A DNA stretch of 64,000 bases from a virus. Position 1 is the first letter of the stretch, and each line of letters starts with the position of its first letter. The translations under genes were made by a program, and so were the position numbers. A model generated the notes under the pieces. That model saw only the letters and a program-made list of their open reading frames with translations. It did no database searches and was not told where the DNA came from. The stretch lies in IMG/VR virus record IMGVR_UViG_3300017991_005548, positions 232,328-296,327 of that record; one strand, given 5' to 3'. This document shows positions 4,110-50,007 of the stretch, piece after piece.

Positions 4110-4119
4110 TGTTATACTC

Positions 4120-23961: not shown

Positions 23962-26267
23962 TACAATTTACCTCCATGAGTCCATTTTACTCCACTTAAT
24001 CCGAGTTCAACCACTCCTATTTGTGAAGAAGACGTTCCTAAATCATCTAACTCAAATCTAATAAAAACCATGTCTCCAGGATAATACCCAGATATATAAA
24101 ATGGGCCAAATTCAACAAACTGAATTTTAGTTGTGTCAACATCGTCAACTTTTACAGAATCTGACTGAGCGGCAGTTGCCGTTTTTGATTCTGTATTGAC
24201 TAAAGTCCTTGCAACAGGAGTTATCCCTCCAGATGGATCTGCTTCCAAGACACCTTGCACTTCAACAACTTTAAAGCCAATAGTCATATCTATATCTAAG
24301 CCAGATCCTGTATTAACAGTATCTAGGAAAGTTAAATCAACAAAAATAGGTAAGCTTGTGTCCATCCCCTTAGGTATGCTGAATTGATAGTATATTGCAT
24401 CCCCCGCGTCATTTAACAATGAGTTTGGACATTGATGTGTCCATCCGTCAGGCTCAGTTCCCAAGCCAATTGCAGTCGTCCAAGCCGCAACCCCACCAGA
24501 TTCTCCAAAAACATTCCCAGCGGCGTTTAGAGATACCCTGAATCTAGATCTTCCATGATAAGTGTTCGTTCCATCTGGATTAGCTTCAAATCTATTGCAA
24601 CTTAATTTAAATTGTTCGAAAACTGGAGCAGTTGTAACAGCAGTATCAATTCTAATTCTTGTCCAATATAGATTTTTACTATCAATTGTTTTCTTTGTCC
24701 AGTCAGTACCAGTAACATCTTCAGTTAGTCCAAATCTAATATGTTCACTTGAGTTTGCTCTGATAAATACTTCGTCAGCATAATTGTAAAATTCAGATGA
24801 TTCTGTTGACTGAACTGCGAACTCTGTCCAGGCACTGCCATTCCAATACTCAAAAACAAAACTTTTAGGAGTTACTTCAACAGCGGCTGTGGTTTGTTTG
24901 ACTTTTATTCCCCAATGTTTAACCAAATCTGTTGCAGTTTGTCTTTGTGAACCAATTAAAATTGTATGATTCGCCGCAGTACCTTGGAATGAAAAAGTAC
25001 TGCCTGATGAAGAAGACGCATCCTCTGATTCATCTACGAAATTACCACCATCAGTAGTTGATGACGCTGTGCTGTCTGTAGTTAAAACAACCATTCCTGA
25101 GGTATAAGAGTCACCTTCTCCAGCAATAAGTTCAGATCCACGATCTGGTCGTCCAACTGCGAGTTCTCCAGAGAATTTAAAGCCTTCATCACCTTCAAAA
25201 TCATCTTGAATAAATACAATTTCATTAGCATATCCTGCTGGAAATTGAGCTAACCCAAAATTAGCGTCCAAACCAATAATGTGAATCTCCACATCAAGAC
25301 TTTCTACCAAAAAATCAAGACTTGACGATGTACGGAATTCACACGACGAAATAGTAATCTTACCTGTCCCATCGGCTCTCATCGCGTTGGTGCAATTTCT
25401 TATCGTCATGGAAGATATTATTAACGATGAATCTGTTCCTAAGATATAAACCCCATCAGTTGCTCCATCAATTTCACCAGCACGAACGGTAAGAGTTGCT
25501 CCATCATCACACTTTATCCCTGTAGTAACATTAGTTGACACACACTCAAAAGTTACAAAATCAATTTTTGATGTAGAACCATTTGCGTGAAAAACATTTG
25601 TTATGCTACAAGCAACTGGCACAACAAGGCCAGTACCTCTTATTGTTCCACTATTCGCATAAATAAGGTTGGTTACTGAACCAACTGGCGCTGTAGTTAA
25701 GTTAATAACAACAACGCTTGAACTCGAAGTACATTCAATACCATTCGCACAATTATAAATAACACAGTCTTTAACTATAGATGACGGAACACCTGGAGTT
25801 GCCATTAAGAATGCTGTTCCTGAAGTTGCTCCAGTCAAAGAAAATCCTGCCAAAGTGTTATATCCAGTAGATGTTACTATTGTATCACTTGCGCTTGATG
25901 CTGAAATAGTAGTTGTAAATGGACCAGCTATGGCTCGTATATCAACATAGTTCTTCATTGCTATGGGAGTTTCTGTGTAAATTCCAGGTGCAACTGCAAT
26001 TGTATAGCTATTGGTTGGACCATTGTCTGTAATGTTTGATAAGGCCCCATTTATAGTTAAATATGGGCTATGTGCATCACCGTCACCTTCTGTATCGCTA
26101 CCCGTTTTGGATACATATAAAACGTTTGAAAGTGGAACAAGAAGATTTTCTCTTTTGATATATTGTGATTCATAACTTCCACCACCAAGGTTTTTTGAAA
26201 CAGCGACTAAGTCATCTGCTTCTAAAGTGGTCATTTCTGAAAGTTGTGATAATGATTTGTCAGCCAT
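23961..26267 (-). CDS. Beta-helix tail fibre/tailspike protein
   Basis: The 768-residue protein starts with a short unit found at the base of phage fibres (LSQLSEMTTLEADDLVAVSKN...). From about residue 50 to 350 it reads as a right-handed parallel beta-helix of the pectate-lyase type: VLYVSKTGSDTEGDG opener, IAVAPGIYTET, then repeating rungs with Asn/Thr/Ser stacks (VKDCVIYNCANGIEC; ISSMTIRNCTNAM). Such helices in tailspikes bind or cut host polysaccharide. The C-terminal 400 residues contain separate beta domains, one with YWNGSAWTEFAVQ. No catalytic residues can be assigned. GAGG precedes the ATG; the stop overlaps the next gene by one base. Confidence 0.82.
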   Translation of the reverse strand: MADKSLSQLSEMTTLEADDLVAVSKNLGGGSYESQYIKRENLLVPLSNVLYVSKTGSDTEGDGDAHSPYLTINGALSNITDNGPTNSYTIAVAPGIYTETPIAMKNYVDIRAIAGPFTTTISASSASDTIVTSTGYNTLAGFSLTGATSGTAFLMATPGVPSSIVKDCVIYNCANGIECTSSSSVVVINLTTAPVGSVTNLIYANSGTIRGTGLVVPVACSITNVFHANGSTSKIDFVTFECVSTNVTTGIKCDDGATLTVRAGEIDGATDGVYILGTDSSLIISSMTIRNCTNAMRADGTGKITISSCEFRTSSSLDFLVESLDVEIHIIGLDANFGLAQFPAGYANEIVFIQDDFEGDEGFKFSGELAVGRPDRGSELIAGEGDSYTSGMVVLTTDSTASSTTDGGNFVDESEDASSSSGSTFSFQGTAANHTILIGSQRQTATDLVKHWGIKVKQTTAAVEVTPKSFVFEYWNGSAWTEFAVQSTESSEFYNYADEVFIRANSSEHIRFGLTEDVTGTDWTKKTIDSKNLYWTRIRIDTAVTTAPVFEQFKLSCNRFEANPDGTNTYHGRSRFRVSLNAAGNVFGESGGVAAWTTAIGLGTEPDGWTHQCPNSLLNDAGDAIYYQFSIPKGMDTSLPIFVDLTFLDTVNTGSGLDIDMTIGFKVVEVQGVLEADPSGGITPVARTLVNTESKTATAAQSDSVKVDDVDTTKIQFVEFGPFYISGYYPGDMVFIRFELDDLGTSSSQIGVVELGLSGVKWTHGGKL

Positions 26268-26320: not shown

Positions 26321-29300
26321 CTATTGGCTTTCGCTAGAACTTTCGCTAAACATTTCAGATGAAGAGGAAGATGACTCACCTTGAGATGATGTTGATGAGC
26401 TTTCGGAGTATAACTCACTAGAGGTACTTGAGCTTTCGGAGTATAACTCACTAGAGGTACTTGAACTTTCAGAGAATCCTTCAGATGATGTACTTGAACT
26501 ATCGGTACTTTGTGAGTATTGTTCACTAGATGTACTTGAACTATCAGTACTCTCTGTTAATCTACGGAAAGTTCCATCCTCCCAAATTGCGTTTCCTAAA
26601 TCACCATCCCAGACAAAGTTATCTCCATTCTCTAGTATCCATTGTTCGTCATTAATGGATGAAGATGAACTTTCTGAACCAGAGCTTGTGGAGAATGGAC
26701 AACTTTCTTCAACAAATCCAGGGTCGCCAAATCCCCTGCCTTTTGTCCAGACATTACCTTGATTAATTGGATAAATTTGGTTTGGGTCACTATAGAACAT
26801 CCAAAGATTTATGTCATTAGTAACTGTATCGTTAACGGCCCAATAAAAATTACCACCTGATTCTCCATAAAATAGATATAAGTCATTTGTATAACGTTTA
26901 TATATTGGATACCCATTAAATGTTTGTATAGTTTTGTAATACGGCCCATTAACATCTTGAGCAGGGACAGAGCTTGAACTTGATTCTGAAGAAAATTGTT
27001 CACTTGATGTTGAGGAACTCTGAGAAATACTGCTAGATGATTCAGATTTTGATGAATCGCTTACTGAACTTTCAGAAAGTGAGCTTGAACTTTCAGATTG
27101 AGAGCTAGAAGACTCACTAGTAAATCCTCCAGAACTTGTACTACTAGAGTCTTTAGAACTTGAACTACTTTCTCCAACTCCATCAGCAAGGGTTGAAAGT
27201 CTAATGGCAGATAAACCAATTTGGCTTGCTACCGTTAAATCTGTTCCACCTGCCTGACCTTGGAGAGATGTCCTTAACTCAACTTCCTCCCCCGCTGTCA
27301 ATTCAAGGACAGTGTGGGCGTTAAAACCACCATTCCAAGTGTCTGCTCCCCCCTGAGAACCACGTTTGTAATTACCATGACCCCCAATATTACTTTCGAC
27401 ATCATCAACAAACCAATCCGCGCCAAATGTAAGTCTTGTCCCACTAGTTGAAACTGTATCATCTGACAATCCATTCCCCATAAACAAATAATCATCAGTA
27501 ATATTAACTTGAACTTCAGCATTAGAGTTTTGAGTATAGGAGTTTGTGTCAATTTGATCAACATCTCTAGCAATATTAAGAATGGTACTTGCTCCCACAT
27601 CCTGTCCACCAGTACTATCATGAGTAATAATGGTTTCTGTATGCCATGGTACTTCCATAATTTCCAGACTAGATGAGTTAACAACTCTGGCCATACCTGT
27701 TCCATCAATGTCTGCGTTACCTCTTTGGATTTGCAAGATAAGATCTTGATTTGCAGTTGTATTATCGACTAGAAAAAGCGCATGAGCCACACCTGGACCT
27801 GAACTATTACCTCTTTCATAGACATATGAATAACTACCCTCAATTGCTGTACCACCCAAAGTTGTCCTTAATATTCTTTGTGTTCTACTAGATCCAGGTC
27901 CAAACTTGAAAGAATATTTGACAAGATATTTTGCGACCTTTTTAAGTCGAACGGTTGTTGCATTTTGTTGTTCGATAACATCTGTGTCAGTTTCGTCTTT
28001 AGTATTAAATGTAATGTCCTGCCATACTGTTCCAACGTAAGCTGTAGTATCTATATCGTCAAAGTATTGTCCATATGCGACTTTGTCTTCACTTGGCAAT
28101 TTTACCAACATTAATGAAGTTTTAGAGTTCGATAACACATCAGATGCACTTATAAGTACGGGTTGCCATTCAACTCGGACATCTTGTCCTCTAACTACAT
28201 CTATAAAAACCGCTCCAGATGTAAAGCCTTCATCATTCTCATTATTTCTGGCATAGCCATATCCATAACCACCATCTTGAACTACACCATTAACCAAAAC
28301 TCTTGATTGAATTGAATGTCTGCCATCAGATGTTGATGTTGATCTAATCTCATACATGAGTAGGTATTTACCATTGCTATCTATAGTGATGTCTGTATTG
28401 TTTACGTTTTTGTTATAAATGCTGTCTTCTCTAACAGTGTTATTAAATTGAACTCCTTCCCATACCCCAATGTTTCCTATTGTTTGGGTATTATTTGTGT
28501 CTTGGTAAATTGCAATAAGTCCAGTATTTTCTACATCAGACTCACTACTGGAACTTGTGATTCCCTCACTACTGGAACTATTGGAACTGTCAGAACTAAA
28601 TTCATCGTTAAGCCATTTATCAGCGAGATATGCTTCTACTTCATATCTCTCTGATGTAGACAGAACCCTATCATAGAGAAGTATTTCAGCGACTAAACCT
28701 TCAGTATATGAATCATTATTTCTGTTTCTTCCAACAGCATAAAAATCAAACAACGGATTGAAAACGGAACCAAGAGTTTGATCTAAGGTTTTCAATCCAT
28801 TTATATAACCTTTTAAACTATTGGCACCATCAGCAGTAATTGATAAAACGGTTGGCAATCTATTCCCAGAAGATTGCTCAATGGAATATTCTGTAGCTCC
28901 TACTCTAATTCCTAAAGTATCTGATGCATTATAATTGACTTGAAAGGAAGTGTCTGGAGTTTCTGAAGAATCATTACAAAACCAACTATCAAATTCAGAT
29001 TGAGTTTCTGTTGATTTATAAACCAAGAAAAAAGTCATTGGGCCTTGCCAATTAACGATATCTCTGTCTAAATAATCGTTATCACCATCAAACTCAACAG
29101 TGTTCCTTCCATTCATTGAGTTCAAGTTGTAAACTGGTTGATTTGCAGGGGTTGTCTGCTCCACATTAAGTATATTACCAGATTTGTCAGCCCAAGCAGA
29201 TACATTACTTCCGTTCAAGGTAATAGTGGATGCATCATCTGCATCTAGCCATAACCTCAATCCATTGGACGGGAGTCCTTCTGATGATGTTGAGCTACTA

Positions 29301-29404
29301 TCTCTGCTTGAACTGGAGCTACTATCTCTACTGGAAGAGCTAGAACTACTGTCTCTGCTTGAGCTTGAGCTACTATCAAAACTACTTGAACTACTTGAAG
29401 CCAT
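26321..29404 (-). CDS. Multidomain Ser-rich fibre protein with LamG and jelly-roll-like domains
   Basis: Order in the 1027 residues: poly-Ser head (1-44) with SSRDSS repeats; a LamG/concanavalin-like domain (about 45-268: LRLWLDADDAST, SAWADKSGN, FDGDNDYLD, LLYDRVLSTSER); a Ser linker; three beta domains of about 145 residues (288-438, 438-588, 588-740) resembling C1q/TNF-type jelly rolls (GKYLLMYEIRSTS; VAKYLVKYSFKFG; DDYLFMGNGL); a Ser linker; a domain with Y-x-G-type aromatic strands (816-901) related to two in the giant neighbour; a small WxxDxGxxW unit; and a Ser tail with 11-residue repeats. LamG and jelly-roll domains often bind glycans, so a receptor-binding fibre is likely. Confidence 0.8.
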   Translation of the reverse strand: MASSSSSSFDSSSSSSRDSSSSSSSRDSSSSSSRDSSSTSSEGLPSNGLRLWLDADDASTITLNGSNVSAWADKSGNILNVEQTTPANQPVYNLNSMNGRNTVEFDGDNDYLDRDIVNWQGPMTFFLVYKSTETQSEFDSWFCNDSSETPDTSFQVNYNASDTLGIRVGATEYSIEQSSGNRLPTVLSITADGANSLKGYINGLKTLDQTLGSVFNPLFDFYAVGRNRNNDSYTEGLVAEILLYDRVLSTSERYEVEAYLADKWLNDEFSSDSSNSSSSEGITSSSSESDVENTGLIAIYQDTNNTQTIGNIGVWEGVQFNNTVREDSIYNKNVNNTDITIDSNGKYLLMYEIRSTSTSDGRHSIQSRVLVNGVVQDGGYGYGYARNNENDEGFTSGAVFIDVVRGQDVRVEWQPVLISASDVLSNSKTSLMLVKLPSEDKVAYGQYFDDIDTTAYVGTVWQDITFNTKDETDTDVIEQQNATTVRLKKVAKYLVKYSFKFGPGSSRTQRILRTTLGGTAIEGSYSYVYERGNSSGPGVAHALFLVDNTTANQDLILQIQRGNADIDGTGMARVVNSSSLEIMEVPWHTETIITHDSTGGQDVGASTILNIARDVDQIDTNSYTQNSNAEVQVNITDDYLFMGNGLSDDTVSTSGTRLTFGADWFVDDVESNIGGHGNYKRGSQGGADTWNGGFNAHTVLELTAGEEVELRTSLQGQAGGTDLTVASQIGLSAIRLSTLADGVGESSSSSKDSSSTSSGGFTSESSSSQSESSSSLSESSVSDSSKSESSSSISQSSSTSSEQFSSESSSSSVPAQDVNGPYYKTIQTFNGYPIYKRYTNDLYLFYGESGGNFYWAVNDTVTNDINLWMFYSDPNQIYPINQGNVWTKGRGFGDPGFVEESCPFSTSSGSESSSSSINDEQWILENGDNFVWDGDLGNAIWEDGTFRRLTESTDSSSTSSEQYSQSTDSSSTSSEGFSESSSTSSELYSESSSTSSELYSESSSTSSQGESSSSSSEMFSESSSESQ

Positions 29405-29463: not shown

Positions 29464-32400
29464 TTATCCAAAACCAAATAAACAGTATTGATCTGGGAAT
29501 GCCTCTGATGAACTTGAACTTTCGGAGAATCCTTCGCTTGAACTTGAACTTGAACTTTCGGAGAATCCTTCGCTTGAACTTGAACTTTCTGAAGAAGAGC
29601 TTTCTGAAGAAGAGCTTTCAGAGAAACCCTCTGATGAACTGCTACTTGAATCTTTAGAACTACTTGATGACGAAATATCAGCTTCAAAACAAGTTGCCAT
29701 TGCTGACAAACTGATATTAGTACCAGTAACAGTAGTTCCTGTTTCAGTGTACCACCTACCTTTAATGGTATAGGTTCCTGCTGGTAATTTATTTTCTGTT
29801 CTTACAAAAATTGAGCAACTTCCATCTTCATTAGCTGTTCCATGACTTCTTCTAATCTCACCATAATCAGTTCCATCAATGTTGATCGTGAAAAGAACAT
29901 CTCTATTTGCAACATCTGCTGATGTCTGTAATGTCATGCATGCAAAAATGTGGCCCTCTTGATTTAACTGTAGGGTTATGGAAGATCCATCTATATCCTC
30001 TATGGAAGTTGCAGTTGTTGTATCAGAATTAACTATTGTCTGGGATGATGGAAGAAACTCTTCTTGATTTGTTTCGCATCCGAAGGCCGTAAGCATAAAT
30101 GGAGCACCAGTGGCAGTAACTGGAGATTCAACACTCCACCTTCCTTTAACTGTTATGTCTCCAGGACCAAAGTTACTTCCAGTTCTTGAAGCTATACATA
30201 TAGAAGATCTGTCTCCTGCACTTGAATGGAACCTGGTAATAGGCAACTCTTGACCACCAATGTTCAGGGCGCAAGTAATGTCTTTGGCGGCTCCACCAGA
30301 AATGTATGTGGTTGCAGATAGGAAACCAAAAATTGGATGGTTCGTCTGCATGGTCAAGTCTTGAGTTAAGCCATCAATATCCTCTAGTGTTGCAGATGTT
30401 GTTGTGTCATTTGCAACTGTATCATATATTGATGGGATTTCATTTCCATAACAACTCTGCATAGGAATGGCGATAACAGTGATGCTAGTTGCAGATAGAG
30501 TTCCTCCTTCAGTATACCATCTACCTTTAACTGTGTATGTCCCTGCTGGAAGAGTGCTTGGAGTTCTATAAACAACACCAACACTACCATAATCATTTGA
30601 ACTTGACTGGTATCTAGTAATCACAGGAGAATCTGTTCCATTGATGCTAATGGCGAAATAACCTTCTTGGTTATTAGTTGTATTGTTGCTTGATAACGAC
30701 ATGAATCCCATTATGTGGGCATCGTCAACCAATATAACGTCAACGCTTGCTCCATCGATATCCTCAAGAGCGGTTGTATTGGTTGTGGAGTCAGATGCAA
30801 CAACTGCTCTTTCAACAAACATGCAATTAAGACATTCCAAGCTTGAAGAGCTACTTGATGAACTGCTAAATCCTTCACTACTTGAGCTTGAAGGAGAAGA
30901 TTCAGAAATACTTGACGATGACTCAGACAGAGATGAAGACGATTCGGACTGAGAACTCTCTGAGAAAGAACTCTCAGATTGACTACTGCTGGATTCTGAT
31001 GTACTACTTGAGCTAGATGATTCTGAGCTTATACTTTCAGTAAACTCATCGCAGTGTCTGTACCTAAAATGAACGTTCTCTGTAGAACTACTTGATGAGT
31101 TACTACTTGATGATTCACTCTGCGAACTTGAACTTTCTGAGAATCCTTCGGATGAACTGCTTGAAGGAGAGGATTCCGACTGACTAGATGATGATTCTGA
31201 TTGAGAACTACTAGACTCACTTTGTGATGACGAACTCTCTGACTGAGAAGATTCACTTTGAGAACTAGAACTCTCTGACTGCGAAGAACTGGATTCAGAT
31301 TGAGATGAATCGGACTGACTACTTGAGCTTTCAGACTGACTACTTGAGCTTTCAGATTGAGATGAATCGGACTGACTAGATGAACTTTCAGATTGACTAC
31401 TTTCACTTTGTGAACTGCTTGACTCTGATTGACTACTTTCAGACTGAGATGATTCACTTTGAGATGATTCCGATTGACTACTTATACTTTCGGTAAATAA
31501 ATCGCATAACAAATATTTGTAATGAACGTTTTCTGTTGAACTACTTGATGATTCACTACTTGAGCTTTCACTTTGAGAACTTGAGCTTTCAGAGAACCCT
31601 TCAGATGAACTACTTGAGCTTTCAGAGAACCCTTCAGATGAGCTACTTGAGCTTTCAGAGAACCCTTCAGATGAGCTACTTGACTCAGATTGTGACGACT
31701 CTGATTGCGAAGAAGAACTTTCAGACTGGGAGCTACTAGACTCAGATTTACTACTTTCACTTTGACTGCTACTGGACTCTGACTGACTGCTACTGGACTC
31801 ACTTTGTGACGACTCTGATTGCGAAGAAGAACTTTCAGACTGGGAGCTACTGGACTCACTCTGAGATGATTCACTTTGAGAACTACTCGATTCCGATTTA
31901 GAACTACTGGACACAGACGATTCACTCTGACTGCTACTACTTTCTGACTGAGAACTTGAGCTTTCAGATTTTGAACTACTGGATTCTGATTGTGAACTAC
32001 TGGATTCACTTTGAGATGATTCACTCTTAGAACTGCTGGACTCTGATACAGAACTTTCGGAAATCGAACTACTAGATTCAGACTGAGAGCTTTCACTCTG
32101 AGATGATGAACTTTCACTTTCTGATGAGGAGCTTTCTGATTGAGAGCTACTGGACTCAGATTGCGAACTTTCTGATTGAGAGCTACTGGACTCACTTTGA
32201 GATGACTCACTTTTACTACTGCTTGATTCGGATTGAGAAGATTCACTCTTTGAGCTACTGGATTCTGACACAGAACTTTCAGAAATCGAACTGCTAGATT
32301 CTGACTGAGAACTCTCACTCTGCGATGAAGAACTTTCTGACTGACTACTTGAACTCTCACTCTGCGATGAAGACGATTCAGATTGAGAACTCTCACTTTG

Positions 32401-35400
32401 AGATGATGAAGATTCACTTTGAGATGAGGATGATTCAGATTTAGAACTGCTGGACTCAGACTGAGAAGATTCACTTTTACTGCTACTAGATTCAGATTGT
32501 GAACTTTCGCTCTGAGATGATGAACTTTCACTTTCTGAGGAAGAACTCTCTGATTGAGAACTACTAGATACAGAGGATTCACTCTGACTACTTGAACTTT
32601 CTGATTGAGATGATTCTGATTGAGAACTACTGGACTCACTTTGAGATGACGAACTCTCACTTTGACTACTGCTGGATTCAGATTGAGAACTTTCAGATTG
32701 AGAGGAAGATGATTCGCTCTTTGAAGATGAACTCTCGGACTCAGAAGAACTTGATTCACTTTGTGATGATTCAGATTCTGAACTACTCGATTCAGATTGA
32801 GAACTCTCAGACTGAGATGATGAAGATTCACTTTGTGATGAAGATGATTCAGACTGAGAACTACTGGATTCAGATTGTGAAGAGCTGGATTCAGACTGAG
32901 AGCTACTGGATTCAGATTGTGAGCTTTCACTCTGACTAGATGAACTTTCTGATTTAGATGAACTACTTTCTGACTGAGATGATTCAGATTGACTGCTTGA
33001 ACTTTCACTTTCTGACGAAGAACTTTCAGATCTTGAACTGCTGGACTCACTTTGAGATGACTCACTTTGAGATGAACTCGACTCACTTTGAGATGATGAG
33101 CTTTCACTCTGACTGCTACTTGATTCAGATTGAGATGAACTTGATTCAGATTGAGAACTTTCACTCTGAGATGAACTACTTTCGGACTGACTACTGCTGG
33201 ATTCAGACACAGAACTTTCTGACTGAGATGATTCAGATTGACTACTGGAGCTTTCACTCTCTGACGATGAACTCTCAGACTGTGAACTGCTGGACTCTGA
33301 TTTTGAACTGCTGGACTCTGATTGCGAGCTTTCGCTCTGGGAGCTAGAGCTTTCGCTTTGACTACTGCTGGACTCAGATTTTGACGATGAGCTTTCAGAT
33401 TGAGATGATTCAGATTGTGATGAACTTGACTCTGATTCTGAACTACTTGATTCACTTTGAGATGATTCACTCTTACTACTACTGGATTCAGATTGAGAGC
33501 TACTGGACTCACTTTGAGATGATTCAGATTGAGAGCTACTGGACTCAGACTGAGAAGATGAACTTTCGGATTGACTGCTTTCACTTTGTGAACTGCTTGA
33601 CTCTGATTGACTACTTGAACTCTCAGACTGTGAACTACTCGACTCTGATTCAGATGAACTAGACTCACTTTGAGAACTAGATGATTCGGATTTAGAGCTA
33701 GAGCTTTCAGACTGAGAACTTTCGCTCTGACTACTACTTGATTCACTTTGAGATGACTCTGACTGACTACTGCTGGATTCACTTTCTGATGAAGAACTTT
33801 CGCTCTGACTACTACTAGATTCAGACTGAGATGACTCACTTTGAGAGGAAGAACTCTCTGACTGAGACGATTCAGATTGAGAACTTGAGCTTTCAGATTG
33901 AGATGAATCACTCTGACTAGATGATGATTCAGACTGTGAAGAACTGGACTCAGATTGACTGCTACTGGACTCACTTTCAGACGAAGAACTTTCAGATTGG
34001 GATGAACTGGATTCTGATTGAGAGCTTTCACTTTGACTACTGCTGGATTCAGACACAGAACTTTCTGACTGCGAAGATTCGGACTGACTGCTGGAACTTT
34101 CACTTTCTGAAGATGAACTCTTAGATTGTGAACTACTTGATTCAGATTGAGATGAACTTGACTCTGATTCTGAACTACTTGATTCAGATTGTGAACTACT
34201 TGATTCAGATTGTGAACTACTTGATTCAGATTGAGAACTACTGGACTCAGATTGTGAACTACTTGATTCAGACTGTGAACTGCTTGACTCAGATTGACTA
34301 CTACTGGACTCTGACTGAGAACTACTCGATTCAGATTGACTACTGCTTGATTCGGATTGAGAGCTTTCAGATTGAGAAGAGCTAGACTCAGATATAGACG
34401 ATTCACTTTGCGAACTGCTGGACTCTGACTGAGATGAACTAGATTCAGAAACAGAAGATTCAGACTGACTACTTGAACTCTCTGATTGAGATGAAGAGCT
34501 TTCAGAAACAGAAGATTCGCTCTGTGACGAGGATGATTCTGATTCAGATTGTGATGATTCTGATTGAGAACTACTAGACTCACTTTGTGATGACGAACTC
34601 TCTGACTGAGAAGATTCACTTTGAGAACTAGAACTCTCTGACTGCGAAGAACTACTCTCAGATACAGATGACTCAGATTGAGAACTGCTGGACTCTGACT
34701 GTGATGAACTTGATTCGCTCTCTGAGCTTGAGCTTTCACTCTGACTGCTACTAGATTCAGATTTGGAAGAAGAGGATTCACTCTGACTGCTACTAGATTC
34801 AGATTGGGAGCTTGAAGACTCAGACTCACTACTTGAAGATTCACTTTGAGACGATTCTGATTGAGAAGAGCTAGACTCAGATTGACTGCTACTCGATTCA
34901 GACTCAGATGAAGATGATTCTGATTGACTACTCTCTGATTTACTACTACTGGATTCACTTTCGGATTGCGAACTCTCACTTTGACTACTGCTGGATTCAG
35001 ACTGAGAACTTTCAGATACAGAAGACTCACTTTGTGATGAACTAGATTCACTTTGACTACTGCTGGATTCACTTTCTGATGAAGAACTTTCAGACTGAGA
35101 AGAGCTACTTTCAGATTGAGACGAAGAACTCTCTGATTGACTACTACTAGATTCAGACTTAGAACTTGAACTTTCACTAAATAATCCAGAAGATGAACTA
35201 GAGGAACTAACTGGACACTCTCCATTCTGAACATTAGGAGCGGGAGATGTTCCAGACCCAACAAACCAGGTTTCTGTTGATGGAGAAACCCATGGCTCTG
35301 TTATACCAGTGTTATATGCGGAAACGCCCTCTAATGTAGTTGATAAGGTCCATCTACTGATATTAGAGAAGAAAAGAAATCTTGATCCATCACTGTAATA

Positions 35401-38400
35401 TGTAGTGTCGTTATGAACTCCTGCCGCATAGTAACTTCCATTGTAGTTATCGTCTCCCGCTAACTCAACACAATAAACTGGCCCAAGATCTATACTTGAT
35501 ATACTTGAACTCGAATCTATAGATGAACTACTTGAACTAAATTGTTCAGAAGAACTGCTAGATGATGAGCTTTCCCCTTTACTTGAACTACTGGACTCAG
35601 ATTTAGAGGACTCAGATTGAGAACTTGATGATTCTGATTGAGATGATTCACTTTGAGACGACGAACTTTCAGATTTGGACGATTCACTCTGACTAGATGA
35701 ACTTTCTGACTGGCTACTTTCTGACTGAGAACTACTGGATTCACTTTGAGATGATTCACTCTTACTACTGCTGGATTCAGATTGAGAGCTACTGGACTCA
35801 GACTGAGAGGACTCTGATTGTGAAGATGAGCTTTCAGACTGAGATGATTCAGATTGACTGCTTGAACTTTCACTTTCTGACGAAGAACTTTCAGATTTAG
35901 ATGAACTAGACTCACTTTGAGAACTTGAGCTTTCAGACTGCGATGATTCACTTTGAGAACTACTTGATTCACTTTGAGATGATTCAGATTGGCTACTTGA
36001 ACTTTCAGACTGAGATGATTCACTTTGAGATGAAGAACTCACTGATTGCGAAGATTCGCTTTGAGATGAAGACGATTTCGATTGAGATGAACTGGATTCT
36101 GACACAGAACTCTCTGACTGAGAACTGCTGGATTCACTTTCTGACGAAGAACTTTCGGATTTTGAACTTGACGATTCTGATTGTGATGACTCTGACTTGG
36201 ACGAACTACTTTCAGACTGACTGCTACTTGACTCACTTTGAGAGGACTCAGATTGAGAACTTGAGCTTTCAGATTGGCTACTTTCAGATTGAGAACTGCT
36301 GGATTCACTTTTAGAGCTTGAACTATTCGATTGTGAACTACTTGATTCAGATTGTGAACTACTTGATTCAGATTGTGAAGACGAACTCTCAGACTGAGAC
36401 GATTCACTTTGTGAACTACTAGACTCAGATTGACTACTCGAACTTTCGCTCTTACTACTACTGCTTTCAGATTTACTACTTTCTGATTCAGATTGGGATG
36501 ACTCAGATTGAGAACTACTTGAATTAGATTGGCTACTCGAACTTTCGCTCTGCGAACTTTCTGATTGTGATGAACTGGATTCGCTCTGGGAACTTTCAGA
36601 TTGTGATGAACTGGACTCAGACTGGGAACTTTCAGATTGTGATGAACTGGACTCAGACTGAGAACTCTCTGATTTACTACTTTCAGATTGAGATGAGGAT
36701 GACTCAGATTGAGATGAACTACTTTCAGATTGAGATGAGGATGACTCACTTTGAGATGAACTTGATTCTGAAAATTGTTCAGAACTTGAACTTGAACTTT
36801 CAGAGAATTTACCAGATGAACTGGATTCAGAATTTCCCCCACTAGACTCAGAGCTTGTGCTTGACGAGAACTGCTCTGAACTGGAACTAGAGTTTGACGA
36901 AAATTGTTCTGAACTACTGGACTCTGATTGAGACGAACTGGACTCTGATTTACTACTGCTAGATTCACTTTGGGAACTTTCAGACTGAGACGATTCAGAT
37001 TCCGAACTACTGGATTCAGATTGTGAAGATTCACTCTGAGAGCTTGAACTTTCAGACTGAGATGACTCACTTTGAGATGAAGACGATTCACTTTTAGACG
37101 AACTACTTTCAGACTGACTACTGCTGGACTCTGATTGAGACGATGAGCTTTCTGATTGCGAACTTTCTGATTGCGATGACTCTGACTGAGATGAACTACT
37201 CTCAGATTGCGAGGATTCACTCTGAGATGATGAAGATTCGCTCTGACTACTGCTAGATTCTGACTGAGATGATTCACTTTGAGACGAAGAACTCTCTGAT
37301 TGCGAAGATTCGCTTTGAGAACTACTAGATTCAGACTGAGAGGACTCTGATTGTGAAGATGAGCTTTCAGACTGAGAGCTACTGGATTCGCTTTGAGATG
37401 AACTTGACTCTGACTGAGAACTACTAGATTCAGACTGACTACTTTCACTTTGAGAACTACTAGATTCAGACTGAGAACTACTAGATTCAGACTGACTACT
37501 TTCACTTTGAGAACTACTAGATTCAGACTGAGAACTACTGGACTCAGACTGAGATGATTCACTTTGAGAAGACTCTGATTGACTACTACTTGATTCAGAT
37601 TTTGACGATGAGCTTTCAGACTGAGATGATTCACTTTGAGATGAACTGGACTCAGATTGAGATGAACTAGATTCACTTTGGGAACTTTCAGATTGAGAAC
37701 TACTAGACTCGCTTTGAGATGAAGAACTCTCTGATTGCGAAGATTCGCTTTGTGAACTGCTTGATTCAGATTGAGAACTACTTGATTCAGACTGAGAACT
37801 ACTTGATTCAGACTGAGAACTCTCAGATTGCGAAGATGAGCTTTCAGACTGAGAACTACTGGATTCAGACTGACTACTTTCACTTTGAGATGAACTTGAT
37901 TCTGACTGAGAGCTACTGGATTCAGATTGAGACGATTCACTCTTACTACTACTGGATTCGCTTTGAGACGATGATGATTCAGACTGACTACTTTCACTTT
38001 GAGAACTACTGGATTCTGATTCTGATGATGAGCTTTCAGACTGTGATGATTCACTCTGAGATGATGACGAGTCAGACTGCGAACTACTAGATTCACTTTG
38101 AGATGATTCAGACTGAGAGGAAGAAGACTCACTTTGAGATGAACTACTTTCAGACTTACTACTGCTTGATTCACTCTGAGAACTTTCCGACTGCGAAGAA
38201 CTAGACTCAGATTCAGATTGTGAGCTTTCAGATAATGATGAACTACTCTCTGACTGAGATGATTCAGATTGAGAAGACTCTGATTGCGAGGAAGAACTTT
38301 CTGATTGGCTACTTGAACTTTCTGATTGTGAAGACTCACTTTGAGATGAACTTGATTCAGATTGAGATGAAGAACTCTCACTAAATAATCCAGATGAGGA

Positions 38401-41400
38401 ACTTGAAGAACTAACTGGGCATTCTCCCCCTTCTATGTTTGGAGCAGGAGCAGTCCCAGTAAGAGTCTCCCATGACAAAGTGTCAGGATCTACCCAAGGA
38501 GAAGTTATAGAAGTTCGATAGTCTTGTATTTCTGGAGATCTTTGTCCCAAACCCCAACGACTATCATTCGTGAAATACAACTCTTTACCATTTGCATTGA
38601 CAAAGTATGTTGTATCATTATGTACTCCTGCTGGATAATACGATCCATCATACGTTGGATCACCTGCAAATTCAGCACAATATGCCGATTGGATATCTAT
38701 ACTTGATACACTCGAACTTGAATCTATAGATGAACTACTTGAACTGAATTGTTCAGATGAACTGCTAGATGATGAGCTTTCCCCTTTGCTTGAACTACTT
38801 GATTCACTTTGAGAACTTGAACTTTCTGATTGAGATGATTCAGACTGCGAAGAACTGGATTCTGATTGAGATGATTCACTTTGACTACTGCTGGATTCAC
38901 TTTGAGAACTCTCAGACTGCGAAGAACTGGATTCTGATTGAGATGATTCAGACTGAGATGACTCTGATTTTGAAGAACTTGATTCCGATTGAGATGATTC
39001 AGACTGTGAAGAACTACTTTCCGACTGTGAAGAACTACTTTCTGACTGTGAAGATTCACTTTGGCTACTTGAACTCTCTGACTGTGAAGATTCACTTTGA
39101 GAAGAAGATGATTCCGATACAGATGATTCTGATTGAGATGAACTACTCTCTGATACAGATGATTCTGATTGAGATGAACTGGATTCAGATTGAGAACTTT
39201 CACTTTTGCTACTAGAGCTTTCAGACTGAGAACTCTCAGATTGAGAAGAGATGGATTGAGATGATTCTGATTGAGAGCTTGAGCTTTCAGAGAATTTTTC
39301 AGACGAACTTGACTCAGATTTTCCTCCACTTGATTCCGAACTTGATTCTGAACTAAATTTCTCAGAGCTACTGGACTCACTTTGAGATGAACTTGATTCG
39401 GATTGACTACTGCTGGATTCACTCTGAGAGCTTGACGATTCTGATTGAGAACTGCTTGATTCAGACTGAGATGATTCTGATTGAGATGAACTTGATTCTG
39501 ATTCAGATGAAGAACTCTCAGATTGTGATGAGCTACTCTCAGATTGACTACTTTCTGACTGAGATGATTCACTTTGAGAAGAACTCGATTCAGATTGACT
39601 ACTACTTGATTCAGATTGAGAACTTGAGCTTTCAGATTGGCTACTCTCAGATTGACTACTGCTTGATTCGGATTGAGACGACTCACTTTGTGAACTGCTC
39701 GACTCAGATCGTGATGAAGAAGACTCGGATTGGCTACTAGAGCTTTCAGACTGAGATGACTCACTCTGACTAGAGGATGATTCTGATTGAGACGAGGAAC
39801 TCTCTGACTGAGAGCTTTCGCTTTGGCTACTGCTTGATTCTGATTGCGATGAGCTACTCTCCGACTGAGAGCTTGAACTTTCTGATTGCGATGACTCGCT
39901 CTGAGACGAACTCGATTCAGATTGACTACTACTTGATTCTGATACAGATGATTCGCTTTGAGAGCTACTGGATTCAGACTGACTACTTGAACTTTCTGAT
40001 TGAGATGAACTTGACTCGGACTGTGAAGACTCGCTCTGAGAACTACTGGATTCTGATTGCGATGAGGAACTCTCAGAGAATCCCTCTGATGAACTTGAAC
40101 TTTCTGATTGTGAAGAGCTACTTTCACTTTGAGAACTTGAACTCTCTGAGAAACCTCCAGATGAACTAGACTCAGATTGTCCTCCACTAGATGAAGAACT
40201 CGAACTTTCTGAAACCCCTTCAGAAGATGAACTCGAACTCAATGAAAATCTTTCTGATGAACTTGAACTCGATGAAAATCTTTCTGATGAACTTGATTCA
40301 GATTTGGAACTCGATGATTCAGACTGACTACTAGAAGAGATGCCTAAGCTCGAAGATGACTCACTTGAAGAAGAAACGCATGGCCCCTTACAAACAGGCA
40401 AGATGTCTCCACTGGTAATAATGCCTGTCATGTCATTGTCCATGGTGATAAAGACATTCAACCCAGCAATTAACTTAATGAATCCCTGTTCTGGACCGCT
40501 ACTGGTTAACAGACATACAGTTTCCCCTTCTACCCAATCATCAATATGACCTGAGACAAACACAAGATCTTTTAGACCAATAACAAGAATCTCAGTAGTT
40601 TCACAACCATCTAAGCTTGAAGAGCTACTTTCCCCTAAGGAACTCTCTGATGATAATGAGAACCCTTGACTCGATGAACTATAGCGTTGAGAACTTTCTG
40701 AACTAGTTGAGCTTGAAGAGTTGCATGGACCCTTACAAACCTTAATGGTATCACCAACATTGACAATACCCATCATCGATTGTTCCATTCTCAAATAAAC
40801 AGCAGGATCAATTAAAAGATTAACTTTACCCTGATATTCTTGACCCCCAATCTCAAGACATATTAATTCATTAAGCACCCATTCATCAAAATAGTTCGAG
40901 ACAAAAACGATATCAGTTCCACCAACTACTTGAGCAACATTCTCTTCGCAAGAACCCATGCTTGATGAGCTACTCGATGAACTGCTAGTGAAACCTAATG
41001 AAGATGATGATTGAGATGATTGGCTAGACTCACTTGAAGATAAACTACTTGATGAATATCCTTCACTTGAAGAAGAACTGCTCGATGAGTATTTCTCAGA
41101 TGAGCTAGAACTCTCCGAATAACCAAGACTTGAAGAAGAACTACTTGAAGAGTATCTTTCAGATGAACTACTTTCTGAGTATCCTTCTGATGAGCTTGAT
41201 GAGCTTGATGAATCTAATGAACTGCTCGAAGAACTGTAACCTTCTGAAGAAGAACTGCTCGAAGAACTGTAAAGTTTATCAAAGTATGGAGTTTCAAGAA
41301 TGTAAATCGTATCACTCTGATTTACGGCGATACCACCAACTCCGCACCAATCATCTGCTCTAGGATAATCTCTGACCAAAGCTGTGTTACCATCTTGGTC

Positions 41401-42294
41401 AACTCTAACCATTCTGCTACCATAGGATTCATCATAATCAATAACATAAACATATCCAGACTGGTTGATATCCATTAAGAAGATATCTAAATACTGTGTT
41501 GTTCCAGTTGGGCCTAATTCAAACCCTCTTGTTCCGCTACCAGAGTAACGAAGTAAATTGAAATTTTTGTCAAGTCTTTTTAGCTTATAGTTCTTGGAAT
41601 CGGCAATAATTAGATCACCACCGTCTCTAATTCCAAGACCGAATGGAGTATTGAGCAACGAATCTGGACCAATGCCTAAAGTATCTCCAGGGACTCCTCC
41701 AATTCCAGCAACAGTTGATACATTATTAATACCATATCGAATGAATCTAATGGCATGATTTAAAGAGTCAGCAATAAATAAATTGCCAGAAGCATCTACG
41801 GCGATATCTCTTGGCTCATTTAGCAACGCATGATCATTGTCATCAATTTCTATGCAATTACCATCTCTGAAACCTGCGGCTCCATATTTATCTCCACAAA
41901 CCAATGAAACTTTTCTGTCAGGGGTAATTCTGCGAATCTGGTTGTTCCCAGTATCAGCAACATAAATATTTCCTGTTGCATCAATAGACAACCCACCAGG
42001 AGTATTAAATAAGGCATCATCAGCATCAACGATTTTATCACCGTTATTTCCAGCAACACCTGGCGTACCTGCAAACAATATAGTTTGACCATCATGAAGA
42101 ACTCTGGTAATAATATTTTGATATGGGTCAGAGATATAAATTGTACCTGAATGGTCAATAATAATCCCAAAAGGATCAGTGCTCCCCTCAGTACTAAAAG
42201 AAAGGTTTGCCGCAACAATTCGCTCTGCAAACCCATATTCATCAATATAGTACTGGTTTTGGATTAATAATCTACTTGTGTCGCACTTGGCCAT
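29464..42294 (-). CDS. Giant 4276-residue Ser/Gln/Glu repeat protein (fibre or adhesin)
   Basis: One uninterrupted frame. Layout by residue: NHL beta-propeller (1-340, blades such as LSIDATGNIYVADTGNNQIRRI); Ser linker; two Cys-bounded domains (449-524 and 564-639, each C...CKGPC); Ser-rich stalk (640-1197); aromatic domain with Y-x-G-x-Y and two Cys (1198-1294); stalk (1295-2266); a second copy (2267-2361); stalk (2362-3587); two short LCDLFTESISS-like modules (3588-3606, 3739-3758); three related 125-residue beta domains (about 3822-4207, each with LEDIDG and TVKGRW-like strands); Ser tail. The stalk repeats the unit SSSSQSES/SQSES with K, E, V, I, N or R variants. Serines use both TCN and AGY codons. 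This resembles serine-rich adhesin stalks; it is probably a very long virion fibre. Confidence 0.85.
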   Translation of the reverse strand: MAKCDTSRLLIQNQYYIDEYGFAERIVAANLSFSTEGSTDPFGIIIDHSGTIYISDPYQNIITRVLHDGQTILFAGTPGVAGNNGDKIVDADDALFNTPGGLSIDATGNIYVADTGNNQIRRITPDRKVSLVCGDKYGAAGFRDGNCIEIDDNDHALLNEPRDIAVDASGNLFIADSLNHAIRFIRYGINNVSTVAGIGGVPGDTLGIGPDSLLNTPFGLGIRDGGDLIIADSKNYKLKRLDKNFNLLRYSGSGTRGFELGPTGTTQYLDIFLMDINQSGYVYVIDYDESYGSRMVRVDQDGNTALVRDYPRADDWCGVGGIAVNQSDTIYILETPYFDKLYSSSSSSSSEGYSSSSSSLDSSSSSSSSEGYSESSSSERYSSSSSSSSLGYSESSSSSEKYSSSSSSSSEGYSSSSLSSSESSQSSQSSSSLGFTSSSSSSSSSMGSCEENVAQVVGGTDIVFVSNYFDEWVLNELICLEIGGQEYQGKVNLLIDPAVYLRMEQSMMGIVNVGDTIKVCKGPCNSSSSTSSESSQRYSSSSQGFSLSSESSLGESSSSSLDGCETTEILVIGLKDLVFVSGHIDDWVEGETVCLLTSSGPEQGFIKLIAGLNVFITMDNDMTGIITSGDILPVCKGPCVSSSSESSSSLGISSSSQSESSSSKSESSSSERFSSSSSSSERFSLSSSSSSEGVSESSSSSSSGGQSESSSSGGFSESSSSQSESSSSQSESSSSSEGFSESSSSQSESSSSQSESSQSESSSSQSESSSSQSESSSSQSESSVSESSSSQSESSSSQSESSQSESSSSQSESSSSQSESSSSQSESSQSESSSSQSESSSSQSESSQSESSSSQSESSSSRSESSSSQSESSQSESSSSQSESSQSESSSSQSESSSSQSESSSSQSESSQSESSQSESSSSQSESSSSESESSSSQSESSQSESSSSQSESSSSQSESSSSQSESSSSQSESSSSEKFSSESSSESSGGKSESSSSEKFSESSSSQSESSQSISSQSESSQSESSSSKSESSQSESSSSQSESSVSESSSSQSESSVSESSSSQSESSQSESSSSQSESSQSESSSSQSESSSSQSESSQSESSSSKSESSQSESSQSESSSSQSESSQSESSSSQSESSQSESSSSQSESSQSESSSSQSESSSSSKGESSSSSSSSEQFSSSSSSIDSSSSVSSIDIQSAYCAEFAGDPTYDGSYYPAGVHNDTTYFVNANGKELYFTNDSRWGLGQRSPEIQDYRTSITSPWVDPDTLSWETLTGTAPAPNIEGGECPVSSSSSSSGLFSESSSSQSESSSSQSESSQSESSSSQSESSSSQSESSQSESSQSESSSSLSESSQSESESSSSQSESSQSESSSSKSESSSSQSESSSSQSESSQSESSSSQSDSSSSQSESSQSESSSSESESSSSQSESSQSESSSSQSESSSSKSESSQSESSSSQSESSSSQSESSQSESSSSQSESSSSQSESSQSESSSSQSESSSSQSESSSSQSESSQSESSSSQSESSSSQSESSQSESSSSQSESSSSQSESSQSESSSSKSESSSSQSESSQSESSQSESSSSQSESSSSQSESSQSESSSSQSESSSSQSESSQSESSSSQSESSSSQSESSSSQSESSSSQSESSQSESSSSQSESSQSESSSSQSESSQSESSSSQSESSSSQSESSQSESSSSQSESSQSESSQSESSSSQSESSSSQSESSSSKSESSSSQSESSQSESSSSQSESSQSESSSSESESSQSESSQSESSSSKSESSSSQSESSSSEQFSSNSSSSSEQFSSSTSSESSGGNSESSSSGKFSESSSSSSEQFSESSSSQSESSSSQSESSSSQSESSSSQSESSKSESSQSESSSSQSESSQSESSSSQSESSQSESSSSQSESSQSESSSSQSNSSSSQSESSQSESESSKSESSSSKSESSSSQSESSSSQSESSQSESSSSQSESSSSQSESSSSQSNSSSSKSESSSSQSESSQSESSSSQSESSQSESSSSQSESSSSKSESSQSESSSSKSESSSSESESSSSQSESSVSESSSSQSKSSSSQSESSQSVSSSSQSESSQSESSSSQSESSQSESSSSQSESSQSESSSSQSESSSSKSESSSSESESSSSQSESSQSESSSSQSESSQSESSSSQSESSSSKSESSQSESSSSQSESSQSESSSSQSESSKSESSSSQSESSQSESSSSQSESSKSESSSSSKGESSSSSSSSEQFSSSSSSIDSSSSISSIDLGPVYCVELAGDDNYNGSYYAAGVHNDTTYYSDGSRFLFFSNISRWTLSTTLEGVSAYNTGITEPWVSPSTETWFVGSGTSPAPNVQNGECPVSSSSSSSGLFSESSSSKSESSSSQSESSSSQSESSSSQSESSSSESESSSSQSESSSSQSESSVSESSQSESSSSQSESSQSESESSSSKSESSQSESSSSESESSSSQSESSSSQSESSQSESSSSESESSSSQSESSSSQSESSSSKSESSSSQSESSSSESESSSSQSESSSSQSESSVSESSSSQSESSSSQSESSQSESSSSQSESSSSQSESSQSESESSSSQSESSVSESSSSQSESSSSQSESSVSESSSSQSESSSSQSESSISESSSSQSESSQSESSSSQSESSSSQSESSSSQSESSSSQSESSSSQSESSSSQSESSSSQSESSSSQSESSSSESESSSSQSESSSSQSKSSSSESESSSSQSESSQSESSVSESSSSQSESSQSESSSSQSESSSSESESSSSQSESSSSQSESSSSQSDSSQSESSSSQSESSQSESSSSQSESSQSESSSSQSESSSSESESSSSQSESSQSESSSSQSESSQSESSSSKSESSSSQSESSSSESESSSSQSESSSSQSESSSSQSESSQSESSSSQSESSSSQSESSQSESSSSQSESSSSKSESSQSESSSSESESSSSQSESSQSESSSSKSESSSSQSESSSSQSESSQSESSSSKSESSSSQSESSSSESESSSSQSESSQSESSVSESSSSQSESSSSQSESSQSESSSSQSESSSSQSESSSSQSESSSSQSESSQSESSSSRSESSSSESESSSSQSESSQSESSSSKSESSSSQSESSQSESSSSQSESSSSQSESSSSQSESSSSQSESSSSQSESSQSESSSSESESSQSESSSSESESSSSKSESSSSQSESSQSESSSSQSESSSSQSESSSSQSESSQSESSSSQSESSVSSSSQSESSSSESESSSSQSESSQSESSSSKSESSQSESSSSKSESSSSQSESSSSQSESSQSESSSSQSESSSSQSESSSSQSESSQSESSSSISESSVSESSSSKSESSQSESSSSKSESSQSESSSSQSESSQSESSSSQSESSSSESESSSSQSESSQSESSSSISESSVSESSSSKSESSQSESSSSQSESSSSKSESSSSQSESSSSQSESSVSSSSKSESSSSQSESSQSESSSSQSESSSSQSESSQSESSSSQSESSSSQSESSKSESSSSQSESSSSQSESSQSESSSSSEGFSESSSSSSEGFSESSSSSSEGFSESSSSQSESSSSESSSSSTENVHYKYLLCDLFTESISSQSESSQSESSQSESSQSESSSSQSESSQSESSSSQSDSSQSESSSSQSESSSSQSDSSQSESSSSQSESSSSQSESSQSESSSSQSESSSSQSESSSSQSESSPSSSSSEGFSESSSSQSESSSSNSSSSSTENVHFRYRHCDEFTESISSESSSSSSTSESSSSQSESSFSESSQSESSSSLSESSSSISESSPSSSSSEGFSSSSSSSSSLECLNCMFVERAVVASDSTTNTTALEDIDGASVDVILVDDAHIMGFMSLSSNNTTNNQEGYFAISINGTDSPVITRYQSSSNDYGSVGVVYRTPSTLPAGTYTVKGRWYTEGGTLSATSITVIAIPMQSCYGNEIPSIYDTVANDTTTSATLEDIDGLTQDLTMQTNHPIFGFLSATTYISGGAAKDITCALNIGGQELPITRFHSSAGDRSSICIASRTGSNFGPGDITVKGRWSVESPVTATGAPFMLTAFGCETNQEEFLPSSQTIVNSDTTTATSIEDIDGSSITLQLNQEGHIFACMTLQTSADVANRDVLFTINIDGTDYGEIRRSHGTANEDGSCSIFVRTENKLPAGTYTIKGRWYTETGTTVTGTNISLSAMATCFEADISSSSSSKDSSSSSSEGFSESSSSESSSSESSSSSEGFSESSSSSSSEGFSESSSSSEAFPDQYCLFGFG
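31535..35205. repeat. Ser/Gln/Glu-coding repeat tract, C-terminal stalk
   Basis: About 3.7 kb of imperfect 15- to 24-bp units coding SSSSQSES and SQSES on the minus strand. A cleaner local tandem of 33 bp occurs at 31583-31681 (three copies, coding SSSSEGFSESS). Copies differ at many third positions and between TCN and AGY serine codons, so the array is old or selected at protein level. Confidence 0.9.
35500..38390. repeat. Ser/Gln/Glu-coding repeat tract, middle stalk
   Basis: About 2.9 kb of the same units, broken only by short variants such as EQFSSSTSSESSGGNSESS at about 36770-36910. It lies between the two copies of the aromatic Cys-containing domain, suggesting that tract plus domain duplicated as a block. 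Confidence 0.88.
38706..40375. repeat. Ser/Gln/Glu-coding repeat tract, N-terminal stalk
   Basis: About 1.7 kb of the same units, with SSSSEGFSESSSS-type modules toward the N-terminal end and an EKFSSESSSESSGGKSESS variant near 39290-39365. Its 3' end (SSSSKGESSSSSSSSEQFSSSSSSIDSSSS) matches the end of the middle tract almost exactly, again indicating block duplication. Confidence 0.88.
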
Positions 42295-42366: not shown

Positions 42367-43203
42367 TCAACTTGATGAGCTTGAAGAGTCAGTTGATTCA
42401 GATGAACTTGAAAAAGAACTGGAACTATCTATGGAACTAGACGAACTTTCTGAAGATATACTAGACATAGATGTACTTGTACTGGCTAACTCAAATTTAT
42501 TTATTCTTTCCACATCATTGCCTCCAACCATGAACGCAAATTCATGAATAGCAACATCTGAAGTAAACTCACCAGCTAACTCCATAAGTATTTTTACTTT
42601 ATCAGCATATACGGATATGTCGGTTAGAGTTTCAATCTGATTGGGTTCAATCCTTTGATAATCCAACGGATCAAGAGAATCATCTCCTGCAACAGAGAAT
42701 CTAACAATTGTATCTTCGCTGATGTCTCCATTGAAGGTTAATAGGATTGTTTCAGGTTTAAAACCTAAGTCAAATGCTTTTGTGTAAAACTTTGTGGAGG
42801 CATTTGATGTTATGTATCTAAGATTTATATTGCGAACTTTGGGGATATAGGTAGTGTCGGTTGTCATTACAGCCATAAACTGTAGATACCTACCATTTTG
42901 CATCCCCAACTCAAAAGTGCTGTTATAGTATGGCCCAAACCATTTTTCGTTTGTAAGGGCTTTATTCGCTGATCTGACAAAGAAGCCAACATTCAGTTCA
43001 TTCTGATCCCCTTCCCATGTTGCGTCAAGCCATCTTACAAATCCATCATCTGCAATAATATTGTCAGAAATAAAAACGCCTGTAAGCCTATCTATTGGCT
43101 GGATGGCTGTAGGTTTAACGCCTAAGTAATTGAAAGCAACACTGTTGATTCCTGGTATGTTCGCTTGTACAACGTTTGCATTGTTAATATTGATCAGAGC
43201 CAT
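42367..43203 (-). CDS. Structural protein with Ser-rich C-terminal tail
   Basis: The 278 residues are a beta-rich globular part (1-240) followed by a tail of about 40 Ser-dominated residues ending in a run of Ser directly before TGA. The globular part has no enzyme motif; strands such as FYTKAFDLGFKPETILLTFNGD and VRFSVAGDDSLD suggest a sandwich fold, as in tail accessory proteins. The tail composition matches the stalks of the neighbouring giant protein, so it may dock onto or co-assemble with it. GAGG lies ahead of the ATG, which overlaps the upstream gene by 20 bp. Confidence 0.72.
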   Translation of the reverse strand: MALININNANVVQANIPGINSVAFNYLGVKPTAIQPIDRLTGVFISDNIIADDGFVRWLDATWEGDQNELNVGFFVRSANKALTNEKWFGPYYNSTFELGMQNGRYLQFMAVMTTDTTYIPKVRNINLRYITSNASTKFYTKAFDLGFKPETILLTFNGDISEDTIVRFSVAGDDSLDPLDYQRIEPNQIETLTDISVYADKVKILMELAGEFTSDVAIHEFAFMVGGNDVERINKFELASTSTSMSSISSESSSSSIDSSSSFSSSSESTDSSSSSS

Positions 43204-49997: not shown

Positions 49998-50007
49998 GGG
50001 TTAAATT

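Follow-up and report, generated by a model that had tools for sequence, protein, structure and literature searches.

In bacterial serine-rich repeat proteins (SRRPs), the Ser-rich repeat acts as an extended stalk that projects a binding region, and the length of this tether is thought to clear the capsule (PMC7661464). Described examples are PsrP, GspB, Srr1 and Fap1 of streptococci and lactobacilli. In phages, modular tail fibers and receptor-binding proteins that carry domains of the LamG, C1q or TNF-like type join conserved N-terminal parts to exchangeable C-terminal binding domains through a coiled-coil, collagen-like or beta-helical shaft. LamG lectin domains have been found on jumbo-phage fibers, and the jumbo phages CBB, 121Q, Atu_ph07 and PAU bear whiskers or hair-like fibers, which are long flexible appendages (PMC7824862). 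A TNF-like domain is likewise found at the end of the long stalk of BclA.

The gene analyzed here encodes a 4276-aa protein. It lies within a stretch of 64,000 nucleotides, referred to as a whole as the window, which forms the end of a 296-kb IMG/VR record. We consider the protein to be an accessory, virion-attached adhesion fiber of a tailed megaphage, with a probability of approximately 0.6. Like the SRRPs, it combines a very long Ser-rich tether with glycosyltransferase genes in the same genome, and its layout is of the SRRP type, with Ser-rich regions, intervening and terminal folded modules, and a putative binding region. It differs from them in being phage-encoded among virion genes, in its repeat (SSSSQSE/SSQSE), and in a glycan cluster that is not adjacent. 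There was no SRRP-type signal peptide at the N-terminus, MAKCDTSRLLIQNQYYIDEYGFAERIVAANLSF, which by eye had no basic-plus-hydrophobic stretch, and no LPxTG cell-wall anchor, the protein ending in SEAFPDQYCLFGFG. No gtfA/gtfB or secA2/secY2/asp genes were seen among the examined neighbors, secA2 and secY2 without a dedicated search. By analogy, the protein may work like a bacterial SRRP adhesin, of which group it is not a member. With modular phage fibers it shares an architecture of conserved N-terminal parts and C-terminal binding domains that can be exchanged, but thousands of Ser-rich residues stand in place of the usual shaft. The likeness to jumbo-phage whiskers is one of description. 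The TNF-like lectins BclA, BC2L-C and PLTL have the same fold as is predicted for the C-terminal domains, whereas here there is no collagen-like stalk and each chain carries three tandem copies.

Gene, composition and assembly

The coordinates given in a preliminary description of this DNA were exact, and the strand, which it had left unstated, was the minus strand (Table 1). The gene formed one unbroken open reading frame with 0 internal stops in 4276 codons. Ser, Glu and Gln accounted for 52.3%, 12.6% and 8.7% of the residues, giving a sum of 73.6%. The Ser-rich part, defined as windows with at least 40% Ser, covered 3358 of the 4276 residues; the edges of this mask overlap the adjoining modules, and because the mask was set by Ser content, some stalk statistics are conditional on the pattern. 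The Ser-rich stretches held 524 acidic and 59 basic residues. All six Ser codons were present, as had been claimed, in proportions near those of the globular parts, and the codon string quoted in the preliminary description (TCA TCT CAA AGT GAG TCC AGC AGT) was found in frame at 33037-33060.

A second assembly (IMGVR_UViG_3300018080_008436, 476 kb) was identical to the window over a 31.5-kb overlap, its contig breaking inside the stalk at window position 31569, where a 33-bp tandem repeat is about to begin. Only repeat matches to the 476-kb record were found at window positions 55-64 kb, and the offsets imply a phage genome of at least about 509 kb. The other end of the 296-kb record fell inside a paralogous stalk gene, which the 476-kb record completes; over the 9647 bases compared there, the records differed at 3 positions, of which two were close to the contig end, and 1255 residues of the paralog stalk protein were identical in both assemblies. 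Wherever the two assemblies overlap, the stalk sequence is thus reproduced, but its full length depends on a single assembly. As no exact repeat reached 120 bp, the gene should be tractable for ordinary reads. The phage is a tailed one, and its genome encodes a terminase large subunit (terL) and a ribonucleotide reductase.

Table 1. Features of the giant Ser-stalk gene and its neighbors (window coordinates; residues refer to the 4276-aa protein)
Feature	Residues	Position	Strand	Basis or remark
Giant Ser-stalk gene, 4276 aa		29464..42294	-	ATG at 42294, stop at 29464
NHL-type beta-propeller, N-terminal	~19-310	41365..42240	-	Pfam NHL and PDB matches
Small Cys-bracketed module 1	449-524	40723..40950	-	Sequence; tandem pair by eye
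Small Cys-bracketed module 2	564-639	40378..40605	-	Sequence; tandem pair by eye
Long Ser stalk 1, 589 aa	626-1214	38653..40419	-	40% Ser mask
CxExAGD...CPV module copy 1	1204-1294	38413..38685	-	Homologous copies in 2527-aa paralog
Long Ser stalk 2, 1002 aa	1281-2282	35449..38454	-	40% Ser mask
CxExAGD...CPV module copy 2	2273-2362	35209..35478	-	Sequence comparison
Long Ser stalk 3, 1488 aa	2347-3834	30793..35256	-	40% Ser mask
STENVHYKYLLCDLFTES motif (STENV type)		31486..31539	-	Sequence
STENVHFRYRHCDEFTES motif (STENV type)		31033..31086	-	Sequence
Three tandem TNF/C1q-like jelly-roll domains	3825-4202	29689..30822	-	Predicted fold
C-terminal peptide SEAFPDQYCLFGFG		29467..29508	-	Resembles end of 2527-aa paralog, SEAFPEQYFGDGFEE
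1027-aa Ser-linker protein, downstream neighbor		26321..29404	-	phrog_10356 virion structural, E=1.5e-24; cyanophage virion proteins
768-aa tail protein, next after the 1027-aa protein		23961..26267	-	Tail family match; weak beta-helix match
278-aa protein (p278), upstream, Ser-rich C-terminal tail		42367..43203	-	56% identical in sibling G009
Three more Ser-linker structural genes		45546..55833	+	N-termini kept in sibling, modules past linkers not

Domain organization

Folded segments do break up the Ser stretches, as had been proposed. The N-terminal propeller matched Pfam NHL (E=3.5e-14, 52.5 bits against a cut-off of 20) and the NHL, Pizza and teneurin propellers of the PDB, with E-values down to 1.6e-28. 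The CxExAGD...CPV module, of approximately 90 aa, was present in two copies; its fold was left uninterpreted, as the model was poor (pLDDT 56). Stalk 3 included two 18-aa motifs of the form STENVxxxYxxCDxFTES, a type with ten copies across the proteins of this phage. The three tandem C-terminal domains were 35-43% identical among themselves, and the AF2 model (pLDDT 76, moderate) had a TNF/C1q-like jelly-roll fold. The best Foldseek matches in the PDB were the N-terminal lectin of BC2L-C (TM 0.56-0.60), PLTL and BclA; sequence similarity to these was not significant, and the jelly-roll fold is common to many phage proteins (C1q/tail proteins). The C-terminal block is thus predicted with moderate confidence to have a TNF-like lectin fold, making it the putative lectin-like or receptor-binding domain. 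The last 14 residues of the protein were similar to the C-terminus of the 2527-aa paralog (SEAFPxQY).

Codon variation and selection on the stalk

The stalk comprised 407 units, 274 of them heptads of the form SSSS-x-SE (mostly SSSSQSE) and 133 pentads of the form SS-x-SE (mostly SSQSE), in unbroken runs of up to 101 units. The 274 heptads were written in 238 distinct DNA sequences that encoded 9 peptides only, 208 of the heptads being exactly SSSSQSE. Over the last five codons, codon identity between units was 0.33-0.38 at all separations tested, from 1 to 200 units, and equaled the value of 0.357 that an independent draw of codons at each position would give. Differences between units were synonymous in 57% of codon comparisons and nonsynonymous in 7.5%, while among random single-base changes to the unit core 72% would be nonsynonymous and 8% would create a stop; the ratio is indicative only, as the units were picked by peptide pattern. 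Strict units filled 80-82% of stalks 2 and 3 and 67% of stalk 1, and therefore long decayed stretches were not hidden by the selection of units. The large number of DNA variants for few peptides, together with the flat codon identity, indicated that the repeat is old and has been maintained at the protein level, beyond chance or slippage. The earlier claim of protein-level conservation was thereby upheld.

The argument previously used to reach that claim was less secure. It held that TCN and AGY codons cannot be interchanged by one base, which is correct, as no single point mutation joins the two Ser codon sets (PMC6872785), and that their mixing within a unit proves the repeat to be more than slippage. 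Mixing alone is still compatible with duplication, because both classes are passed on by any founder unit that contains them. The box strings of the four Ser residues were strongly non-independent, with taat seen 68 times against 43 expected, attt 41 against 14, taaa 38 against 14, and ttat 6 against 30. Much of the TCN/AGY mixing is therefore carried by a few inherited haplotypes that were spread by duplication and perhaps by register shifts. The 68 taat units came in 56 DNA variants, and such third-base variation within one haplotype is the cleaner and stronger proof of protein-level selection and supports the same conclusion. The statement that the repeats were not just recent DNA slippage stood in its main part, the codons being saturated, but a minority of the stalk was recently duplicated: exact repeats of at least 45 bp covered 748 bp of the gene and 0 bp of codon-shuffled controls, the longest being 102 bp (about 32 in shuffles). 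Recent duplication is therefore real but limited. Adjacent pentads occurred 14 times, against 42 expected and never fewer than 26 in 2000 shuffles, which suggested that spacing follows a rule or derives from an ancestral 12/19-residue unit.

Neighboring genes and related phages

The stalk gene lay at most 22 kb from terL, in a same-strand block at 22.5-43.2 kb that also encodes a tail protein (phrog_4577) and a virion structural protein (phrog_10356), a setting that favors a fiber. The C-terminal half of the 768-aa tail protein was conserved (65%) in the sibling phage G010. In another sibling record, G009, with 75% terL identity, the syntenic region was present, and the N-termini of p278, P0004, P0005 and P0006 showed 56-58% identity as far as the beginning of the Ser linker and no further, except that the alignment of P0006 continued some way into the Ser-rich part. 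The G009 linkers differed in length and wording, with SSSSSSEGYSS units against SSSSQSE. Past the linkers, G009 P0004 stopped, P0005 bore a different C-terminal domain, and P0006 left the contig within the linker. Ser linkers are therefore a trait of the lineage that marks the sites of module gain, loss or exchange. In G009, the syntenic locus between p278 and p232 lacked the 4276-aa gene together with five neighbors, so the giant stalk gene is accessory and dispensable. Short Ser linkers were also present in the phages G003 and G008 (54% terL identity), and none of this type was found in the 195 kb checked (290-485 kb) of LR745208, a 485-kb uncultured phage with 25% terL identity.

The length and composition of the stalk had been called unusual, and wider searches bore this out. 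A codon-specified QSESSSSQSE pattern with 20 specified bases had 21 matches in the window, none in any IMG/VR contig other than this phage's own, and 0 in 84,980 prokaryote genomes (one per species); the scan was exact for one codon arrangement, and other arrangements would escape it. Relatives of the N-terminal propeller and the C-terminal triple domain were found in IMG/VR within the same phage population only, and in GenBank phages there were none beyond generic NHL similarity. The CxExAGD module, the STENV motif and the N-terminal domain of the adhesin array described below were likewise restricted in IMG/VR to that population, and the CxExAGD module had no match in GTDB genomes. No ortholog of the stalk was found.

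Alternative explanations and modification of the stalk

An assembly or sequence artefact, in which a low-complexity tract was expanded and wrongly stitched, would fit the break of the second assembly within the stalk and the left end of the other contig within the paralog's stalk; however, the longest exact repeat is shorter than a typical short read, the frame is free of stops throughout, and the paralog stalk agrees between assemblies, and we consider this highly improbable. A tape measure or internal scaffold in place of an external fiber is barely credible. The protein is very long and encoded close to structural genes, but its acidic, Ser-rich composition with a beta-propeller and jelly rolls does not suit such a role; tape measures are typically of predicted-helical composition. 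The gene was also missing at the same locus of the sibling, which would be fatal for a tape measure unless it is encoded elsewhere, and we rejected this reading on both grounds. The stalk could instead be an unmodified, disordered spacer of neutrally varying length, with only the folded domains of importance. Short Ser linkers in the wider lineage and in more than 20 proteins would agree with this, as would some recent duplications and the sibling's linkers, which vary freely in sequence and length beside conserved flanking N-terminal domains. However, in a neutral spacer Thr, Ala, Gly, Asn or Asp should be tolerated, whereas the SSSSQSE/SSQSE units were kept almost exactly over most of the stalks despite codon saturation, and the rarity of adjacent pentads suggests that spacing matters or that there was an ancestral higher-order unit. 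A plain linker is therefore unlikely.

A more specific form of the adhesion-fiber reading, and one compatible with it, is a glycoprotein fiber like the bacterial Ser-rich repeat adhesins, in which Ser would be O-glycosylated in the cytoplasm by the phage's own enzymes and the glycans would end in nonulosonic acid or sulfated sugar. A glycan cluster of approximately 25 kb was present at 28-53 kb of the record (G000:C1:28000-53000), encoding NeuB (E=8e-33), a cytidylyltransferase (7e-19), a sulfotransferase (1e-21), several GT2 and GT1 enzymes, a DXD glycosyltransferase and methyltransferases. It adjoined the 2527-aa paralog and the adhesin array, and NeuB-like sequences were rare, occurring in 2 of 50,697 phage records. 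Profile searches of the phage gave no match to Pkinase, Bac_transf (lipid-carrier sugar transferase), Polysacc_synt flippase or the thymidylate synthase/hydroxymethylase family, each of which was detected in most control genomes. With no lipid-carrier transferase or flippase, protein glycosylation is favored over export of a lipid-linked polysaccharide, and with no thymidylate synthase/hydroxymethylase it is favored over the classical hydroxymethyl-base route. A Ser/Thr kinase was rejected as the stalk modifier for want of a Pkinase match, and phosphorylation is much less likely than glycosylation. Against the glycoprotein fiber, a Ser initiator of the GtfA/GtfB type was not identified, the 4276-aa gene is about 210 kb from the cluster, which could serve another target, and published work describes the glycosyltransferase clusters found in jumbo phages as systems that modify capsular polysaccharide (PMC7824862). 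A passage citing earlier work also names DNA or virion proteins as targets that viral glycosyltransferases can modify (PMC12619734). On balance, a glycoprotein fiber is possible, at somewhat less than even odds, and O-glycosylation is put forward tentatively as the preferred candidate modification of the Ser tether.

Proposed function

As an adhesion fiber, the protein would hold its NHL propeller and three TNF-like domains apart by approximately 3,000 residues of tether. The tether, strongly acidic and Ser-rich with small Cys-containing modules along its length, would be unfolded or extended and may carry the binding domains far from the virus particle. If it were fully extended, its contour would measure up to ~1 micrometre, as an upper estimate at ~0.35 nm per residue. 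Anchoring at the C-terminus would fit because the SEAFPDQYCLFGFG-type peptide is common to both giant proteins, and anchoring at the N-terminus would fit because the other linker proteins have conserved N-termini. Across the lineage, the Ser linkers also serve as junctions for the loss or exchange of C-terminal binding modules. The tether keeps its composition and its spacing of 7- and 5-residue units while its codons drift freely, which points to selection on a physical property rather than a specific fold; this property could be, for example, length, extension, charge or modifiable Ser. O-glycosylation by the phage cluster may stiffen and shield the tether.

If this is true, very large phages can substitute kilo-residue Ser tethers, clearly selected at the protein level, for rigid fiber shafts and use Ser linkers as joints for the exchange of binding modules. 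The stalk offers a clean natural case in which codons are saturated and a low-complexity peptide is kept, and could be used to probe selection on disordered proteins. It is a more doubtful proposition that the giant Ser-stalk fibers (4276 aa, 2527 aa and more than 20 shorter ones), coated by the phage's own nonulosonic-acid and sulfated-glycan machinery, form a mucin-like, negatively charged adhesive brush convergent with SRRP adhesins. If the fiber reading is correct, the fiber and the unusual NeuB/glycosyltransferase/sulfotransferase cluster in a phage together make mucin-like glycoprotein coats of virions a testable question.

Other Ser-linker proteins and additional genes

Ser-rich linkers occurred in more than 20 ORFs of this phage. 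The 2527-aa paralog (L037:4569-12152, minus strand) had 2018 Ser-rich residues and modules as in the 4276-aa protein, together with a domain that looked like LamG and the C-terminal peptide shared by both; its N-terminal repeats looked EF-hand/dockerin-like by eye, and Pfam gave no match there at E 0.05. A tandem array of approximately 10 proteins (L040:1-13516, minus strand) had a common N-terminal domain of about 50 aa (KIFxDYQGxSxKI...CLEC), which a short Ser linker joined to C-terminal domains that varied and included DUF285, and from its sequence looks like a receptor-binding cassette. A 1075-aa Ser-linker protein (L021:3810-7037, minus strand) had a middle part that by eye resembled a trypsin-like protease, with a GDSGS motif. 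Directly upstream of P0004, a subtilisin-like protease (window 44564-45544, plus strand; conserved at 70% in the sibling phage) is a possible processing protease. A Dps-like protein (window 43667-44029, minus strand; phrog_858, E 8e-17) adjoined the structural genes. In the 1167-aa ribonucleotide reductase (window 11845-15348, minus strand), residues ~324-680 did not align to relatives and had weak matches to helicase/endonuclease families, and this insert looks like a putative intein.
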